The position numbers were made by a program, and so were the translations under genes. The notes beneath the pieces were generated by a model. It was not told where the DNA came from, did no database searches, and was given only the letters and a program-made list of their open reading frames with translations. A stretch of DNA of 54,465 nucleotides from a virus, in IMG/VR virus record IMGVR_UViG_3300027741_000084, positions 1 to 54,465 of that record; one strand, 5' to 3'. How positions within the stretch are numbered: position 1 is the first letter of the stretch; each line of letters opens with the position of its first letter. This document shows positions 2,538 through 32,925 of the stretch, piece after piece.

Positions 2538-2840
2538 ATGTCAAATATAATTCAAATTACTTCAATATCAGGAACACCCCCATATGATATATACGTTTGT
2601 GATCAAACAATCACATATTGTTATTTGGTATCGGGTTCTACCTTCATTACACCTCCAGTAACTTTTATTGTTCCACCACCATTGGACACATCAACACCGA
2701 TAATATTAAAAATTATTGACTCGTTGGGTTGTGAAAAAATATTTCTTCTTACTTGTGGTGAAATTTATGGAAAATTATTTGAAGGGTTTGAAGTATTCTT
2801 ATTCCAAGATGCCTCAATTTATTTATACGAAGGACCTTAA
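2538..2840 (+). CDS. Small virion-like protein of unknown function
   Basis: 100 residues, not recognised as a named family. The sequence is beta-rich, with a proline patch (PPVTFIVPPPLDTSTP) and four cysteines in the first three quarters. The C-terminus (EGFEVFLFQDASIYLYEGP) is two alternating hydrophobic/acidic strands, similar in style to the C-terminal repeats of the fibre genes ending at 8729 and 11103. The start is only 5 nt after a TATTTAT element. A small structural or fibre-associated protein is the best inference from the context. Confidence 0.55.
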   Translation: MSNIIQITSISGTPPYDIYVCDQTITYCYLVSGSTFITPPVTFIVPPPLDTSTPIILKIIDSLGCEKIFLLTCGEIYGKLFEGFEVFLFQDASIYLYEGP

Positions 2841-2868
2841 TTTAATAAATTTTTTAACAATATGTTTT

Positions 2869-3453
2869 ATGATTTCTAAAAAATGTACAAAATGTTATGA
2901 AGAAAAACCACTAACAGAATATCACAAAGGAGGTGATAAATACGGGCGTCAATATGTTTGTAAAGCTTGTAAAAAAAAATACGCTATTCAAAACAAAGAT
3001 AGGGAAAACGAACGTAAGTTGAATTGGAAATTAAATAATATGGAAAAAATTATCATAAGTAAAAAAAAGTATTATGAGTTGAACAAAGATAAGGAAATAA
3101 AAAGAAATACAAAATATGCTAACATAAAGAAAAAAAATGATATAAATTTCAAACTTTCTTGTATTATGAGATCAAGATTAGTAAATTTTGTAAAACTAAA
3201 AAATTACACAAAAACTAATAAAACATTTGATATTGTTGGTTGTTCTCCAGAAAATTTAAAAAAATATCTTGAAAATCTATTTGTGGAAGGTATGTCTTGG
3301 GAAAACCACGGCATTGATGGGTGGCACATAGATCACAGAATTCCACTATCATCTGCAAAAACCAAAGAAGAAGTATATAAATTATCTCACTATACTAATT
3401 TACAACCTATGTGGGCCACAGAAAATTTAAAAAAAAGTTCTAAAATACTTTAG
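2869..3453 (+). CDS. HNH endonuclease with N-terminal zinc-ribbon
   Basis: The ATG at 2869 (MISKKCTKCYEEKPL) is chosen because upstream in-frame codons overlap the previous gene and have no domain character. Cys6, Cys9, Cys31 and Cys34 form a zinc-finger pair. The middle is a basic, Lys/Asn-rich helical linker. The C-terminus carries the HNH core: GWHIDHRIPLSSAK followed by HYTNLQPMWATENLKKSSK. These are the hallmarks of free-standing phage homing-type HNH nucleases. No TATTTAT element precedes it, unlike most neighbours, and it sits between a virion gene and a glycosyltransferase cassette, as expected for a mobile insertion. Confidence 0.85.
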   Translation: MISKKCTKCYEEKPLTEYHKGGDKYGRQYVCKACKKKYAIQNKDRENERKLNWKLNNMEKIIISKKKYYELNKDKEIKRNTKYANIKKKNDINFKLSCIMRSRLVNFVKLKNYTKTNKTFDIVGCSPENLKKYLENLFVEGMSWENHGIDGWHIDHRIPLSSAKTKEEVYKLSHYTNLQPMWATENLKKSSKIL

Positions 3454-25216: not shown

Positions 25217-28200
25217 ATGGCAACTAACAGTAAGGTTTTTGTTTCGCCCGGTGTGTATACTTCTGAAGTTGACTTAAGCTTTGTAGCCCAAAGTGTCGGT
25301 GTAACTACATTAGGTATAGTTGGTGAAACTTTATTAGGTCCAGCTTTTGAACCTATTTTCATTACAAATTTCACAGAATTTGAAAGCGTATTTGGACCAA
25401 CGTCCCCAGAAAAATTCGTAAACACTCAAATTCCAAAATACGAAGCATCGTATATCGCTAAAGCTTATTTACAACAATCTAACCAATTGTTTGTTACAAG
25501 AATTCTTGGTTTATCAGGATATGATGCAGGACCATCTTGGTCTGTAACAACTGTGGCTAACGTAGATCCATCAACAATTGGTGTTTGGTGTTTAAGTTCA
25601 GTTACGGATTATACAACTTGTGAAACTACTTGTGTTACTCCTAAAGAATTAACATTTACAGTTCCTTTTACCGCATGTACAAACTCTGTAACAACAATCG
25701 GATATAACGCTAATTTCCCTGATGAAATTCAAGATATTCTTTTCACTCAATTTGAACAATTCAATGGATCAACGTCCACATTAGATTCACAAATCAGAAA
25801 CTTAATTTTTGATGTAATAACTGATTCTAATCCATATATGGCGGAAGATGAATACATTTCATATTTTGGTTCAATAGACACTCAAGATTATAATACCTTA
25901 GAAGGTGCGGGATGGACAGCGGCAACTAATGTGTTTAATGTTCCTTCAGTTTCACTTGATGATACAAGTTTAACATCGCCATTAAATGATGCTTGGTATT
26001 ACGCTTTATTTACAAACACAGGAAATACTCACTACAGTGGTTATTCATTCTTTACTTATGTTTCAGGTTTGACTGCTTATTATCCTAACCCTACACCAAC
26101 ACCACAAGCAACAGCGTCTCCAACGCCAACTCCTTCATTTGTAAATCCTTGTATTACACCTTCACCATTTACATCACCAACACCAACTCCTACACCTGTT
26201 AATATCGATTGTTATTCAGGAACTATTGTTGGTAAAATTTATTACTATACAGGTACTTCATATGTTAATTATGATAATGTAGTTGTTGGAACATTAAGAT
26301 CAAGAGGTATTTCAACTTATACAAACGCAACTAACCCAACATATTCAGTAACAGGAACATCTGACGTAACACTTAATATGACTGGACAATATTCGGCAGT
26401 ATTGAAAAATCCTTATTCTACATTTGGTGTAAATGTAATTGATAAGTTTGGAACAAGTTATTCATTTGAAACTTCTTTTACACAAAATGATCCGGAATAT
26501 TGGTCAAAAGTATTTGGTGTTTCCAATTTCCAAAAACCAAGAATTGAAGTTCCAGTATTTGCTGAAGAAAACTTCCAGTCATGGTTAAATTACTCTTGGA
26601 AAAAAGGTTACATTAGAGGTTTAAATCCTAATTTAATTGCTCTTGACTCAGCTCAAAGTGGTGATCCAAATTCAATTGGTTGGTATTTAGATAAATGGCA
26701 AACACCAGTTTCACCTTTTGTTGTTTCAGAATTAAGAGGTAATAAAGTTTATGACCTATTTAGATTCTATACAGTTTCTGACGGTGACGCAGCAAACACA
26801 TTGATTAAAATTTCAATTATTAATCAATCATATAATAACTTAACGTTTGATGTATTGATTCGTAGCTATTTTGATACAGATGCAAATCCTGTTGTTCTTG
26901 AGAAATTTACTAATTGTGCTATGGATCCGGGACAAAATAACTTTATCGGAAATAAAATTGGTACATTAGACGGAGAATACGCACTTAACTCAAGATATGT
27001 AATGGTTGAGATGAGTGAAGATGCTCCAATCGACACACTACCTTGTGGATTCAACGGATTTAACTTTAGAAATTACGCAGGAGCTAATTCACCATTCCCA
27101 ATTATCAAAGGAAAATATGATTTCCCTGGTGAAGTTATTTATAACCCACCATTTGGTTTATCTTCAGGAAATGATGATGCACTTACAAGTCCAGGTGATA
27201 ATGTAAGAAGAACTTATTTAGGTATTTCAAATTCTTATGGATGGGATCCAGCGTTCTTTGAATATGTCGGTAAAAGAAACCCAATTAATTCTTGTGATAT
27301 TGATGGTCTTCCATTTAATTATAGATCTGAAGGTTTCCACATGGACGTAAACGCAAGTGGTTTAACGATCGGACCTGAGTTTTCTACAAGTGGTGAACCA
27401 AGATTTGTTTGTGGTAATTCATCATTCCTTACAGAACCTGAATCACCTACAAATGCTTATTACAGATTATTCGCACGTAAATTCACATTCTTAGTTCAAG
27501 GTGGATTTGATGGATGGGATATTTACAGAGAATGGAGAACAAATACTGACGAATATCAAATTGGTAGAAGAGGATTCCTTAACGGAGCTTGTCCATCATC
27601 AAGATATCCTACCGCAGTTGGTTGGGGAGCATTTAAAGAAATTTCTTTGGGTGACGGTACACAAAATTTTGCTAACACCGACTACTACGCATACTTGTTA
27701 GGACAACAAACATTCGCTAACCCTGAAGCAACAAACATTAACGTTTTTGTTACACCTGGTATTGATTATGTAAATAACAGTAATTTGGTTGAGGATGCGG
27801 TTCAAATGATTGAATTCAACAGAGCAGATTCACTTTATGTTTGTACAACTCCTGACTACGACTTATATTTACCAACAACAACCGGTATTGATGGGTTTAT
27901 CTACCCTACAGAAGCGGTTAATAATTTGGAAACCACAGGAATTGACTCAAACTATACGGCTACTTACTATCCGTGGGTATTGACAAGAGATAGTGTAAAT
28001 AACACTCAAATCTACATTCCACCTACGGCTGAGGTAACAAGAAACTTAGCCTTGACAGATAACATCGCGTTCCCTTGGTTCGCAGCGGCGGGTTACACTC
28101 GTGGTATTGTTAATTGTATCAAAGCTCGTAAGAAACTAACACAAGAAGATAGAGATACTCTTTATGTTGGTAGAATTAACCCAATTGCGACTTTCTCTGA

Positions 28201-28567
28201 TGTTGGTACTGTAATTTGGGGTAATAAAACTCTACAAGTTAGAGAATCCGCTCTTGATAGAATTAACGTAAGAAGATTATTATTACAAGCACGTAAGTTG
28301 ATTTCAGCAGTATCTATTAGATTGTTGTTTGAACAAAACGACGCACAAGTTAGACAAGACTTCTTAAACGCTGTTAATCCAATCTTAGATGCCATTAGAA
28401 GAGACCGTGGTTTATATGACTTCCGTGTAACCGTTTCGTCTTCTCCTGAAGATTTAGATAGAAACCAATTAACAGGAAAAATCTATATCAAACCTACAAG
28501 AGCTCTTGAATTTATTGATATTACTTTCTACATCACTCCAACAGGAGCGTCGTTTGAAAATATCTAA
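25217..28567 (+). CDS. 18: Contractile tail sheath protein (T4 gp18-like), enlarged by a surface insertion
   Basis: 1116 residues, much longer than T4 gp18. The N-terminus SPGVYTSEVDLSFVAQSVGV and ETLLGPAFEPIFI are sheath hallmarks. The C-terminal core (PWFAAAGYTRGIVNCIKARK, then VWGNKTLQV-like VIWGNKTLQVRESALDRINV, and LTGKIYIKPTRALEFIDITF) is the conserved contractile domain. Residues ~290-330 are a Pro-Thr/Ser low-complexity linker (TPTPQATASPTPTPSF), and the sequence around it looks like an inserted outer domain exposed on the sheath surface. A TATTTAT at 25177 and a strong terminator at 28590 frame the gene, making it a monocistronic unit, as expected for the most abundant tail protein. 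Confidence 0.93.
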   Translation: MATNSKVFVSPGVYTSEVDLSFVAQSVGVTTLGIVGETLLGPAFEPIFITNFTEFESVFGPTSPEKFVNTQIPKYEASYIAKAYLQQSNQLFVTRILGLSGYDAGPSWSVTTVANVDPSTIGVWCLSSVTDYTTCETTCVTPKELTFTVPFTACTNSVTTIGYNANFPDEIQDILFTQFEQFNGSTSTLDSQIRNLIFDVITDSNPYMAEDEYISYFGSIDTQDYNTLEGAGWTAATNVFNVPSVSLDDTSLTSPLNDAWYYALFTNTGNTHYSGYSFFTYVSGLTAYYPNPTPTPQATASPTPTPSFVNPCITPSPFTSPTPTPTPVNIDCYSGTIVGKIYYYTGTSYVNYDNVVVGTLRSRGISTYTNATNPTYSVTGTSDVTLNMTGQYSAVLKNPYSTFGVNVIDKFGTSYSFETSFTQNDPEYWSKVFGVSNFQKPRIEVPVFAEENFQSWLNYSWKKGYIRGLNPNLIALDSAQSGDPNSIGWYLDKWQTPVSPFVVSELRGNKVYDLFRFYTVSDGDAANTLIKISIINQSYNNLTFDVLIRSYFDTDANPVVLEKFTNCAMDPGQNNFIGNKIGTLDGEYALNSRYVMVEMSEDAPIDTLPCGFNGFNFRNYAGANSPFPIIKGKYDFPGEVIYNPPFGLSSGNDDALTSPGDNVRRTYLGISNSYGWDPAFFEYVGKRNPINSCDIDGLPFNYRSEGFHMDVNASGLTIGPEFSTSGEPRFVCGNSSFLTEPESPTNAYYRLFARKFTFLVQGGFDGWDIYREWRTNTDEYQIGRRGFLNGACPSSRYPTAVGWGAFKEISLGDGTQNFANTDYYAYLLGQQTFANPEATNINVFVTPGIDYVNNSNLVEDAVQMIEFNRADSLYVCTTPDYDLYLPTTTGIDGFIYPTEAVNNLETTGIDSNYTATYYPWVLTRDSVNNTQIYIPPTAEVTRNLALTDNIAFPWFAAAGYTRGIVNCIKARKKLTQEDRDTLYVGRINPIATFSDVGTVIWGNKTLQVRESALDRINVRRLLLQARKLISAVSIRLLFEQNDAQVRQDFLNAVNPILDAIRRDRGLYDFRVTVSSSPEDLDRNQLTGKIYIKPTRALEFIDITFYITPTGASFENI
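26091..26203 (+). repeat. Pro-Thr/Ser coding tract in the sheath gene
   Basis: It encodes two short runs (TPTPQATASPTPTPSF and SPFTSPTPTPTP) at residues ~292-329 and probably marks the edge of an inserted outer domain. Confidence 0.65.
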
Positions 28568-28635: not shown

Positions 28636-29466
28636 ATGAATTACAAAAATTTTGTAAAAGATATAATTACAGAAATTATTAGTGATCAATTAAAACCAAC
28701 AATGAAGTATTATGCTTTTGATTGGGATGATAATCTAATGTATATGCCGACCAAAATTTATTTGAAAGACGATAAAGGAAAAAGTGTTGGTATGTCAACT
28801 GAAGATTTTGCAGAATACAGAACTGAAATTGGTAAAGAACCTTTTAATTACAAAGGACACAAGATTGTTGGTTTTGACGACGAAGCTTTTAGAGATTTTA
28901 GAGTTCATGGTGATAAAGAATTTGTTAAAGACTCTATAAAATCTCCAACAGGACCTTCTTGGAATGATTTTGTTGAGGCGGTCAATGATGGGTCTATATT
29001 TTCGATTATCACAGCAAGAGGTCACACCCCTAGTGTTTTAAAAAATGCTGTTTATAATTTAATTAAAAAGAATAAACACGGGTTAAACGAAAAAACTATT
29101 GTTAAAAATCTTAAAAAATATAGAGATCTTGCAGATGAAGACGAATTATCTGATGATGATATTATTAGATATTACTTAGATATGTGTAAATTTTATCCTG
29201 TAACGTTTGGTCAGGGTTCTGCTGCTAATCCCGAACAATTAAAGGTGGATGCAATGAGAGAGTTTATGTCTTATGTTCAAAAACTTTCTAGACAACTGCA
29301 AGAAAAGGCATTTATGAAAAACAAAATCAGTAATTATTTTATACCTTATATTGGTTTTTCTGATGATGATTTAAGAAATGTTCAAATTATGAGAAAGAAT
29401 TTTGATGATGAAGATGAATTAAAAATTTATCATACTAGTAAGGAAGGTAAAACTAAATATGAATAA
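28636..29466 (+). CDS. HAD-superfamily phosphatase-like protein
   Basis: 276 residues. HAD motif I is YAFDWDDNLMYMPT (nucleophile Asp29, acid Asp31), motif II is SIITARGHTP (Thr126), a Lys (QLKVDAMREF) is in the motif III position, and motif IV is IGFSDDDLRNV (Asp243-245). The catalytic set looks intact. The likely activity is a phosphate hydrolase on a nucleotide or nucleic-acid end, but the substrate is not visible. The first ~20 residues (MNYKNFVKDIITEIISDQ) are a separate amphipathic helix with the sequence I-T-E. The gene lies between sheath and tube genes, an odd place for an enzyme, and is led by TATTTAT 4 nt upstream. Confidence 0.75.
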   Translation: MNYKNFVKDIITEIISDQLKPTMKYYAFDWDDNLMYMPTKIYLKDDKGKSVGMSTEDFAEYRTEIGKEPFNYKGHKIVGFDDEAFRDFRVHGDKEFVKDSIKSPTGPSWNDFVEAVNDGSIFSIITARGHTPSVLKNAVYNLIKKNKHGLNEKTIVKNLKKYRDLADEDELSDDDIIRYYLDMCKFYPVTFGQGSAANPEQLKVDAMREFMSYVQKLSRQLQEKAFMKNKISNYFIPYIGFSDDDLRNVQIMRKNFDDEDELKIYHTSKEGKTKYE

Positions 29467-29573: not shown

Positions 29574-30062
29574 ATGGCTGATTTATTAATGAAAATGCCA
29601 ATCCCTTATGAACCGAAAAGGGAGAACCGATGGATACTTAGATTTCCGTCGTCACTTGGGATCAATGAGTGGTATGTTGAAACAACGTCAAGACCAAAAC
29701 TTACAATTGCTTCGACAGAGATTCAGTTTTTGAATACTTCAACTTATGTTGCTGGTCGTTTCACTTGGGGAGAGTTACCTGTAACATTTAGAGATCCAAT
29801 TGGACCTTCTGCGTCTCAAGCGGTTATGGAATGGATTCGTTTATGTGCTGAGTCAGTAACAGGACGTATGGGTTATGCTGCGGGATACAAGAAAAATGTT
29901 GATCTTGAAATGTTAGACCCAACAGGTGTTGTTGTTGAAAAATGGATTTTAGAAGGAACTTTCCTTTTAGGATATGATGGGGGATCATTAACATATTCAT
30001 CAGATGGTGTAGCAAAAATAAGTTGTCAGATGAGAATGGACCGTTGTATATTGGTTTATTAA
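29574..30062 (+). CDS. 19: Tail tube protein (T4 gp19-like)
   Basis: 162 residues, the standard gp19 length. Typical features are ENRWILRFPSSLGINEWYVE near the start, WGELPVTFRDPIGPSASQAV, EWIRLCAESVTGRMGYAAGY and SLTYSSDGVAKISCQMRMD near the end. It polymerises around the tape measure to form the inner tube, inside the sheath encoded at 25217-28567. It has its own TATTTAT 35 nt upstream. The order sheath, HAD insert, tube is like T4 18-19 with one insertion. Confidence 0.9.
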   Translation: MADLLMKMPIPYEPKRENRWILRFPSSLGINEWYVETTSRPKLTIASTEIQFLNTSTYVAGRFTWGELPVTFRDPIGPSASQAVMEWIRLCAESVTGRMGYAAGYKKNVDLEMLDPTGVVVEKWILEGTFLLGYDGGSLTYSSDGVAKISCQMRMDRCILVY

Positions 30063-30139: not shown

Positions 30140-30910
30140 ATGGAACAAGATGTTTATCAAGCAGGACAAGCTGAATTCAATTTACCTCATGATGTGATAC
30201 AACTACCTAGTCAAGGTAAATTTTACAAATCAAAAAAGAAATCTGTAAAGGTTGGTTATTTAACCGCAGTTGATGAGAATATCATTGCTGAAGCGGATTA
30301 TAAAAAAAGTATAACAGAAAGTATTATATTTCCTTTATTAAGAAATAAACTTTATGAAAAAGATTTAAGACCCGAAGAACTTGTTGATGGTGATGTTGAA
30401 GCAATCCTTTTATTTTTACGAAATACATCATTTGGACCTGAATACACTGTTAGTTCTATTGATCCAGAAACTGATAAAAGGTTTCAAACGACAATTAGTT
30501 TAGACGAATTAAATTACAAAAAAATTAATTATGAACCAAATGAAGATGGATATTTTGAAACCAAACTTCCTGTGTCAGGATCAAGAGTAAAATTAAAAAT
30601 CTTGAATATGGGTGAAAAATTTGAAATTGAAAATATCTTAAAATCATATCCAGCAGGAAGAGTGACTCCAACTATTACTACAAGATTATTAAAACAAATT
30701 GTTGAAATTGACGGAGATTCTGACAAAGGTAATATTGCAATCTTTATTGAAAAGATGCCAATTGCTGATTCCAAATATATTAGAAAGTTTTTATCTGAAA
30801 ATGAACCGAGATTAGATCTATCAAAAGAAGTAATAGCCCCGTCAGGAGAAAGAGTAGTGATCGACATTACTTTTGGGGTGGAGTTTTTTCGGCCTTTCTT
30901 ATCAATATAA
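30140..30910 (+). CDS. Tail assembly chaperone / baseplate hub protein (T4 gp26-like, PF12322 type), short form
   Basis: 256 residues when read in frame to the TAA at 30910. The PF12322-like signature is visible: FNLPHDVIQLPSQGKFYKSK, VGYLTAVDENIIAEADYKKS and the acidic C-terminal block IDITFGVEFF. T4 proteins of this type include gp26. The position directly before a tape measure is also where long-tailed phages encode the tail assembly chaperone. The final frame-0 segment (RPFLSI) is short, and the +1 frame encodes a conserved-looking 50-residue extension (see the following entry), so this is probably the non-shifted product of a frameshifting gene. Confidence 0.75.
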   Translation: MEQDVYQAGQAEFNLPHDVIQLPSQGKFYKSKKKSVKVGYLTAVDENIIAEADYKKSITESIIFPLLRNKLYEKDLRPEELVDGDVEAILLFLRNTSFGPEYTVSSIDPETDKRFQTTISLDELNYKKINYEPNEDGYFETKLPVSGSRVKLKILNMGEKFEIENILKSYPAGRVTPTITTRLLKQIVEIDGDSDKGNIAIFIEKMPIADSKYIRKFLSENEPRLDLSKEVIAPSGERVVIDITFGVEFFRPFLSI

Positions 30911-31043
30911 AACAACAATTTTAGACGAATTTTATTATTTCTCAAAAATATTTAGAACACAATATTCTGAATTTTTGAATATGCCAACGTATGTAAGGAA
31001 GTATCTTATAAATAAATTTGTTTCTGAAAGCGAAAAGAAATAA
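30861..31043 (+). CDS. +1-frame extension of the tail chaperone (probable programmed frameshift product)
   Basis: The +1 frame is open from 30861 (after TAG and TGA stops at 30855-30860) to the TAA at 31041-31043 and has no usable ATG before the last 20 residues. It encodes GLSYQYKTTILDEFYYFSKI followed by ...EFLNMPTYVRKYLINKFVSE, a recurring tail-chaperone-like pattern (MPxxxRKYLI). At 30884-30891 the sequence reads TTT-TTT-C-GG: after UUU in the P site, the tRNA can slip to UUC, while the A site holds CGG, a codon seldom used in this A+T-rich phage. Skipping base 30890 joins residues 1-250 to the 50-residue extension, giving a 300-residue protein. A sequencing indel is the alternative. Confidence 0.68.
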   Translation, partial: STLLLGWSFFGLSYQYKTTILDEFYYFSKIFRTQYSEFLNMPTYVRKYLINKFVSESEKK

Positions 31044-31071: not shown

Positions 31072-32925
31072 ATGCCTAGTTACGAAAATTTAAGTACTGA
31101 AAAGTTAATTAGAGAACTTAAAGACCGAGATGCGACTATAGATTATCAAGATGGTAAAATTAGAAATCTTCAACGAGCTCAATCTTCAACTCAATCTTCA
31201 TCATTTGAAGAAAGTGCAGACTCTTATAATGTATGGGTGGCAAATCTAGACGGAATTACAAATAAATTACTTTCAACAGCAAAAGAATATAGTGAAGCCA
31301 TAAATCCATTGAATTCAGATGCTTTTGCAAAACTAGACGAATACGGAACAGGACTTCAAGCAACTTTTGGTTTAGGAAAGGAAAGGATGGAAGAGTTCAA
31401 AAAAACCATCGCAGACGTTGCTCCTGAATTAGCTAAGATGGGGATTGACGAAGCCAAAATAGCCGAAAAAGTTGGTGACATAATGAGAGGATTGGGAACT
31501 ACCGCAAGTTTAAGTACAAAAGCTATTACTGAATTAGCGGCGGTGTCAAAAGTTACTGGAGAACAAGAGGAAACTTTAGCTGCCAATTTTAAAGAAGTCG
31601 GAGTATCAATTAATGATGTTGGTTCAGAAATGAAAACAGTAATTGATTACGCTAAAAATGTCGGAGTTTCTGTTAAAGGAGTTTCAAGTGATGTTGTTTC
31701 AAACTTAAACAAAATGAATTTGTATAACTTTGATAACGGTATCAAAGGTTTAGCAACTATGGCGGCAACATCACAAAGAATTGGTCTTAAAATGAGTGAA
31801 GTCTTTTCGTTTTCTGAAAAAATATATAATCCTGAAGGAGCAATAGAAATGGCAGCGGGATTACAAAGACTTGGTGTAACCGCCAGTGGATTGTTAGATC
31901 CTTTAAAGGCAATGGATTTGGCAGCGAATGATCCTGAAGGATTACAAAAAGAAATGATAAATATTACCAAAGAGTTTACAACATTTAATGAAAAAAATGG
32001 TAAATTCGAAATACTTCCAGGTTCTAAAAGAAGGTTAAGAGAAATTGCGAAAGAAATGGAAATACCTGTGGAACAATTGGCAAAAATGTCAATTAACGCA
32101 GCAGACTTTGATATGAAAATGAAACAAATTAAATTTCCTTCATTAGCCGAAGGTGATGAAGAAACAAAACAACTCATTGCCTCAATGGCACAATTAGAAG
32201 GTGGTGTCGCAAAAATACAAGTTAAACAAGAGAGTGGTGAGGTTGTTACAAAGGCTGTTGAAGAATTAACACCACAAGACATTGCCGAATTAAAAAAGGC
32301 AAACGAAGACTCATCTAAAAGTTTGGAAGAGTTGGCGGTAGAACAATTATCAGTTCAAGAACAAACTTTAGCATATTTTAAAAGTGGTGAATTAGCACTT
32401 AAAATGGGAAAAGCGACATCACCTAGTTTAAGTAGATTTTATGGAGCAGTTGCTAAAACCAATCTTGCGGTTGCTAAAAACGTAAGTAAAGCCGTAGGAG
32501 GTACAGAGGGTGTTAGAAATGAAATGCAAAACCTAGCAGGTCCTGCTGAAGGATTAATTAAATCCTTAATGGATGGTAATAAGGCAAATGTTGCAATTTA
32601 TAGTGAACAATTACAAAAAAATACTCAAGATATATTTGATAAATTAGTACCAAAAGGTTCGGCTTTAGTAACAGATATTGCTAAAGACGTTTCTACAACT
32701 TTTGCTGAAACATATAAAAATGTGGGAAATCCTGAAAATAAAGAAACAAAAACAGTAACTCATAAACACGAAGGTACTCTTATTTTGAAGGGAGAAGGTA
32801 ATGTAAACGGTGTGACACAAAGGAACATTAACGATTTATTATCTGACCCGAGTAATGCAAGTCAAACTAATTTCTTGTTGAATGGTGGGTCTGAACCAAG
32901 CGCAGCGACAGGTAAGAAAAATTAG
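31072..32925 (+). CDS. Tape measure protein
   Basis: 617 residues, mainly alpha-helical and Ala/Lys/Glu rich. The N-terminus (LIRELKDRDATIDYQDGKIR) is coiled coil. Long helical repeats follow (SLSTKAITELAAVSKVTGEQ; GVSINDVGSEMKTVIDYAKN; LATMAATSQRIGLKMSEVFS; EMAAGLQRLGVTASGLLDPL), typical of phage tape measures that set the tail length and occupy the tube lumen. The C-terminus (LILKGEGNVNGVTQRNINDL) is a distinct beta-containing end. It directly follows the chaperone and its frameshift extension and has a TATTTAT at 31049. It is shorter than most tape measures of long-tailed phages, which suggests a fairly short tail. Confidence 0.8.
   Translation: MPSYENLSTEKLIRELKDRDATIDYQDGKIRNLQRAQSSTQSSSFEESADSYNVWVANLDGITNKLLSTAKEYSEAINPLNSDAFAKLDEYGTGLQATFGLGKERMEEFKKTIADVAPELAKMGIDEAKIAEKVGDIMRGLGTTASLSTKAITELAAVSKVTGEQEETLAANFKEVGVSINDVGSEMKTVIDYAKNVGVSVKGVSSDVVSNLNKMNLYNFDNGIKGLATMAATSQRIGLKMSEVFSFSEKIYNPEGAIEMAAGLQRLGVTASGLLDPLKAMDLAANDPEGLQKEMINITKEFTTFNEKNGKFEILPGSKRRLREIAKEMEIPVEQLAKMSINAADFDMKMKQIKFPSLAEGDEETKQLIASMAQLEGGVAKIQVKQESGEVVTKAVEELTPQDIAELKKANEDSSKSLEELAVEQLSVQEQTLAYFKSGELALKMGKATSPSLSRFYGAVAKTNLAVAKNVSKAVGGTEGVRNEMQNLAGPAEGLIKSLMDGNKANVAIYSEQLQKNTQDIFDKLVPKGSALVTDIAKDVSTTFAETYKNVGNPENKETKTVTHKHEGTLILKGEGNVNGVTQRNINDLLSDPSNASQTNFLLNGGSEPSAATGKKN

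Follow-up and report, generated by a model that had tools for sequence, protein, structure and literature searches.

A probable programmed +1 frameshift in a T4-type tail assembly chaperone gene

The chaperone gene and its neighbours

The window analysed here is a stretch of 54,465 nucleotides, the whole of positions 1 to 54,465 of IMG/VR virus record IMGVR_UViG_3300027741_000084. At 30140–30910 (+) it encodes in frame 0 a protein of 256 amino acids that matches Pfam family PF12322 (E=1.8e-7; 31.5 bits against a curated cut-off of 24.5) and phrog_150 of PHROG (E=2.8e-12), and that is taken to be the short form of the tail assembly chaperone, TAC-N. An earlier reading made from the letters alone (the sequence-only reading) had assigned it to PF12322; the profile score agrees, and the modelled fold is shared with gp26/gp51-like proteins. 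The ORF ends in FGVEFF-RPFLSI* (ITFGVEFFRPFLSI* with more of the upstream residues), in agreement with that reading, with codons GAG TTT TTT CGG CCT TTC TTA TCA ATA TAA at the junction and the stop TAA at 30908–30910.

The candidate shift site, TTT_TTT_CGG, covers codons 249–251 (30884–30892, +), where the junction described earlier as UUU-UUU-C-GG is indeed found; UUU at 30887–30889 would lie in the ribosomal P site and CGG at 30890–30892 in the A site. In the +1 frame, 50 codons run without interruption from GGC at 30891 to 31040, followed by a stop at 31041–31043; they include MPTYVRKYLI, which bears out the open frame of the sequence-only reading. This extension (30891–31043, +) is assigned, by selection, profile match and predicted fold, as the C-terminal domain of a 300-amino-acid fusion, TAC-NC. 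The same reading gave the +1 frame no start codon, which needs amending: ATG 30980 and TTG 30873 both exist in it. The TTG lies before the junction and never varies in the window family; the ATG is not conserved, as L026, L042 and L044 have IPTYV.

Upstream are genes for the tail sheath protein (25217–28567, +; 1116 amino acids; phrog_23, E=2.1e-54) and the tail tube protein (29574–30062, +; phrog_4542, E=3.4e-21). Downstream, a protein of 617 amino acids (31072–32925, +) is placed by its position as the candidate tape measure; it matched no Pfam or PHROG family, and T4 gp29 in locus L086 is of similar length. The sheath protein is very long, with Thr-Pro-rich stretches (TPTPTPQATASPTPTP), and matches sheath families in its C-terminal part only. 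Between the sheath and tube genes lies a 276-amino-acid protein (28636–29466, +) with no Pfam match, the start of which (YYAFDWDDNLMYMPT) resembles a HAD-type phosphatase motif. Elsewhere in the window, a +1-frame ORF at 2710–3453 (+) overlaps the end of a 100-amino-acid ORF (2538–2840) by 43 codons; its product is HNH-endonuclease-like (CTKCYEEK...WHIDHRIPLS) and it is probably an inserted homing-type gene and not a frameshift.

Conservation of the site and of both frames in close relatives

Searching IMG/VR with the protein gave 80 loci with 70–100% protein identity, 54 of the sequences being unique when the window is included. All 80 have the same 256-codon frame 0, the same final codon and the same TAA, with no in-frame fusion, and in all of them the +1 frame runs 43–45 codons past the TAA, save in two contigs that end inside it. 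Conservation of TTTTTTC and of the +1 ORF in related phages had been suggested as a check, and site, stop and open frame are kept in 80/80 loci. The −1 frame closes within a few codons of the site in nearly all family loci, which does not fit a lambda-type −1 shift. Three family contigs of 273, 149 and 130 kb, possibly incomplete, carry one PF12322 gene each with an extension only beside it, and therefore no second or separate long-form chaperone gene was found in them.

The TTTGGGGTKGARTTTTTTCGGCCTTTC site is almost unvarying in all 80 close relatives, and TTT_TTT_CGG is unchanged in 34/34 nonredundant family members. Around it lies a nearly invariant block, GGGGTKGARTTTTTTCGGCCTTTCNTATCARTA (30875–30907, +), marked by synonymous-site conservation. 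Across the 34 nonredundant sequences, codons 249–257, from slip to stop, form the top synonymous-conservation window of the gene, with a codon identity of 0.968 in same-residue pairs against a gene mean of ~0.63 (0.626), and the codons TTT TTT CGG CCT TTC, TCA and TAA show zero variation. In the family alignment this conservation sets in exactly at the frame junction, which is also the sole in-frame TTT_CGN of the window. The 9-mer TTTTTTCGG by itself is not rare there (2 occurrences against 1.4 expected), so the evidence is conservation and not the motif; as the 44-codon opening past the frame-0 stop also has p ~0.016 in composition-matched random sequence, the case rests on the relatives.

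The extension varies mostly at third codon positions of the +1 frame, and its pN/pS among family sequences is 0.14 (0.098/0.68) in that frame and >1.3 in both others, indicating strong purifying selection on its +1 reading. A profile built from 70 distant +1 extensions and searched against all 994 window ORFs of at least 25 codons found its best match in the +1 ORF at 30861–31040 (E=2.1e-4), the only one of the 994 below 0.1, which makes the extension homologous to those of distant relatives. A tblastn search of the extension against phage records gave no credible match. The Pfam family BrxL_N (E=0.009) was under the cut-off and was dismissed as a chance hit, and a joint alignment of extension fragments with full proteins misplaced the fragments and was left out of the results.

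AlphaFold prediction of the fused protein from a deeper alignment reached pLDDT 82, superseding a prediction from family rows only (pLDDT 55). The predicted fusion has a PF12322 domain, a low-confidence linker at ~253–258 and helices at 255–271, 275–279 and 283–299, the extension being predicted to form a helical hairpin. Foldseek matches in BFVD included a hub subunit of SP-15 (TM 0.67/0.80), gp26 of Aeromonas phage 25 and a T4 gp51-like protein; the Foldseek search found no solved structural homologues of the predicted fusion.

The A-site codon CGG occurs 3 times in the 14,172 codons of the window, in line with its earlier description as seldom used. In the long ORFs of the stretches fetched for 33 relatives (45,306 codons) there are 36 in-frame uses of CGG, 33 of them at the shift site, against 1,342 uses of AGA, the usual Arg codon. 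The window lineage shuns CGG and retains it at the shift site.

No downstream RNA structure that could act as a stimulator was found (z −1.15, −1.04 and −0.56), and comparison of distant +1 loci gave no Shine–Dalgarno-like stimulator common to the +1 group; 13/34 family relatives have GGAG and 21/34 GGAA, and the A-site codon is CGG, not a stop. As a separate observation, GGG at codon 246 (30875–30878 of the window) is invariant in the 34 relatives, though the common Gly codons are GGA and GGT, and the GGGG upstream of the site is kept within the window family beyond its coding requirement.

Distant PF12322 relatives and known systems

Among 199 unique PF12322 loci, classed by site sequence, 146 have a +1 site only, 45 a −1 site only, 5 fit both rules and 3 neither, which puts the −1 loci at about 45–50; an automatic classifier had mislabelled the +1 loci L118, L134 and L153 as −1. 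The usual +1 site is (T/C)TT_(T/C)NN followed by CCT, most commonly TTT TTT TGG CCT (54) and the TTT TTT CGG CCT of the window family (44), then TTT TTT TAC CCT (27) and TTC TTT TGG CCT (10). A slip-prone P-site codon able to re-pair in +1 is conserved: TTT_C is invariant in the family and (T/C)TT_(T/C) occurs in nearly all +1 relatives. The −1 loci carry the classical U_UUU_UUY at the homologous Phe-Phe. Four PF12322 proteins of named phages, 25–30% identical, also have a +1 frame open across the stop, with sites TTT_CTA in LR756508, TTC_TTT_CGT in Streptococcus phage GXN1, TTT_CTT_TGG in Flavobacterium phage immuto and TTT_TTT_CAC in Bacillus phage SP-15, and the +1 frame is likewise open in Listeria phage LIS04 and Microcystis phage Mel-JY01. 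In PA5oct, Atu_ph07, RAS14 and LR756511 the −1 frame, with U_UUU_UUY, is found at the same place. The +1 arrangement also occurs in seven PF12322 loci from bacterial MAG contigs, which are probably binned phage.

Relatives whose two genes are separate and start in the ordinary way would have counted against the sequence-only reading; only L104 and L109 are of this kind, two of the three loci fitting neither rule, where the C-domain is an ORF with its own ATG that overlaps the end of the short gene. This stop-start variant is a small derived pair, in a clade nested among +1 shifters. A quick tree was built from 72 N-terminal regions, each trimmed by its final ten residues; not all of its deep branches are supported. 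On it the three shift labels require 2 changes, which is the fewest possible, and the window family forms a clade on a long branch within the +1 group.

The T4 chaperone genes are reportedly 26 and 51, and frameshifting is said to be retained in several T4-like groups. T4-type chaperones are described as one short and one long gene (Vladimirov, Gautam and Davidson, 2022, Virology 566:9–15, as cited in PMC10885494 and PMC12846349), and −1 poly-T sites are mentioned for T4-like TAC-N genes (PMC12846349). T4 gp26/gp51 and the window gene share the PF12322 family and the same short and long forms, and gp26 ends just past ..KEFFELL, the shift position of the window gene; T4, however, has two genes where the window phage has one gene and a frameshift. 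For groups related to T4, the summaries in PMC10885494 and PMC12846349 give −1 poly-T sites and leave +1 unmentioned, whereas the window shift would be +1. T4 gp26 matched the fused profile better (91% probability) than did gp51 (5%), and because the gp51 comparison is weak the correspondence with T4 rests on architecture and the cited literature.

G–T frameshifting is conserved in long-tailed phages except T4, and in lambda gpG and gpGT have two chaperone roles, tape measure binding and tube recruitment (PMC5009743). As in the window gene, the lambda site lies towards the 3' end of the chaperone gene, ahead of the tape measure, and yields a minor extended form, but it is a −1 slippery heptamer in another protein family (PMC5009743). 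A +1 shift at TTT-CGC has been proposed for the tail chaperone of HF1-group haloviruses (PMC7230728); these share with the window the TTT_CGN motif, the direction and the place upstream of the tape measure, and differ in their archaeal host, the frameshift there being likewise a proposal (PMC7230728). The HF2 chaperone was considered as a PF12322 homologue and rejected, its match to the profile not being significant. The UCC_UUU_CGU of influenza A PA-X resembles the window site in its P-site slip on UUU_C, rare CGN A site and lack of an obvious stimulator, and differs in its eukaryotic ribosome, unrelated gene and E-site codon (UCC against UUU in the window) (PMC3498833). Actinophage chaperones from SEA-PHAGES, which contributed 350 forward sites to training data, also shift +1 in the tail assembly chaperone, and according to the same 2024 tool paper a general forward motif has yet to be identified (PMC10885494).

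Proposed mechanism, alternatives and meaning

What the sequence-only reading suggested, that a PF12322 chaperone gene directly before the tape-measure position undergoes a programmed +1 frameshift, is the best-supported interpretation, given the 80/80 family loci and the distant +1 sites at the homologous Phe-Phe. We propose that one gene very probably makes both TAC-N (256 amino acids) and a minority of TAC-NC (300 amino acids) by +1 slippage at UUU_C with the rare CGG in the A site. Most ribosomes would halt at the TAA at 30908 and release TAC-N. A minority would pause while the P site holds Phe-tRNA on UUU 30887–30889 and the A site holds the very rare CGG; the Phe-tRNA would move one base forward onto UUC, cognate for its anticodon GAA, GGC would then enter the A site and 50 more codons would give TAC-NC. 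Such a pause would be consistent with the rarity of CGG, as argued for CGU in PA-X. The A site of most +1 relatives is UGG or UAC, and the window uses UGG 172 times, which is not rare, so a slow-codon component need not be general. By analogy with lambda gpG/gpGT, TAC-N may bind the tape measure protein, and TAC-NC may recruit tail tube subunits through its helical C-terminal domain.

Another explanation is that no fusion is made: the +1 ORF would give a small protein of its own, initiated at TTG 30873 or at ATG 30980, or would be reached by re-initiation after the TAA. The invariance of TTG 30873 in the family leaves it a small opening, and in L104 and L109 the C-domain is indeed encoded apart, with its own ATG. 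Against this, in 26/96 distant +1 loci neither ATG, GTG nor TTG occurs in the +1 frame between the upstream stop and the 12th codon after the slip; moreover, ATG 30980 is not kept in the family and conservation begins directly at the junction. We consider it improbable. A −2 slip of the ribosome, known from phage Mu, would also lead into the +1 frame and insert an additional Phe, as the P-site tRNA can re-pair on UUU in TTT_TTT_C. Alternatively, RNA polymerase might slip on the run of T (T6 in the window, T7 in many relatives) and so produce a mixed mRNA population. Each has very little chance of being right, because the architecture persists in relatives whose sites are TTC_TTT_TGG, TTC_TTT_CGT, TTT_CTT_TGG and AAC_TTT_CTA. 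The first (10 unique loci), second and last of these sites allow +1 re-pairing only; 16 loci, including the CTT sites, have the architecture with T runs of 3 or 4, and transcriptional slippage would give CGG no need of conservation. An assembly or sequencing indel in one long gene, for which the homopolymer of six T might speak and which the earlier reading had placed at 30884–30890 as its possible undoing, has a negligible probability and is excluded by the site, stop and +1 ORF conserved in the 80 family contigs (54 different sequences including the window), with both frames under purifying selection.

Returning to the +1 ribosomal slip, the sequence-only reading held that such a case in PF12322 would be notable. 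That calls for moderation: the direction is common in the family (about 146/199), the two T4-type forms are published, and T4's division between genes 26 and 51, tail chaperones that shift +1 and shifts at UUU_CGN had all been described before. What appears to be new is a conserved +1 motif in this T4-type family, a direction that follows phylogeny and the retention of CGG for the site in one lineage. A broader proposal, which we put at even chances, is that PF12322 chaperones shift in a direction set by phylogeny, a large group by +1 at (U/C)UU_(U/C) and another by −1 at U_UUU_UUY, the Phe-Phe being the same in both, and that the two genes of T4 and the stop-start form are derived; in the window lineage CGG would be kept for the signal, and the supply of its decoding tRNA would set the chaperone ratio.

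Many such genes in databases would then be incompletely annotated, the extension being absent or listed as a tiny hypothetical gene, as it is beside the chaperone in SP-15, immuto and Atu_ph07. Set against the statement that no general forward motif is known (PMC10885494), the family offers a conserved +1 slip motif in bacterial viruses, and its natural replicates with UGG, UAC, CGG, CGU, CAC and CUA in the A site provide tests of what drives +1 slippage. Within one protein family, the same two-protein output would be reached by a +1 shift, a −1 shift or split genes.
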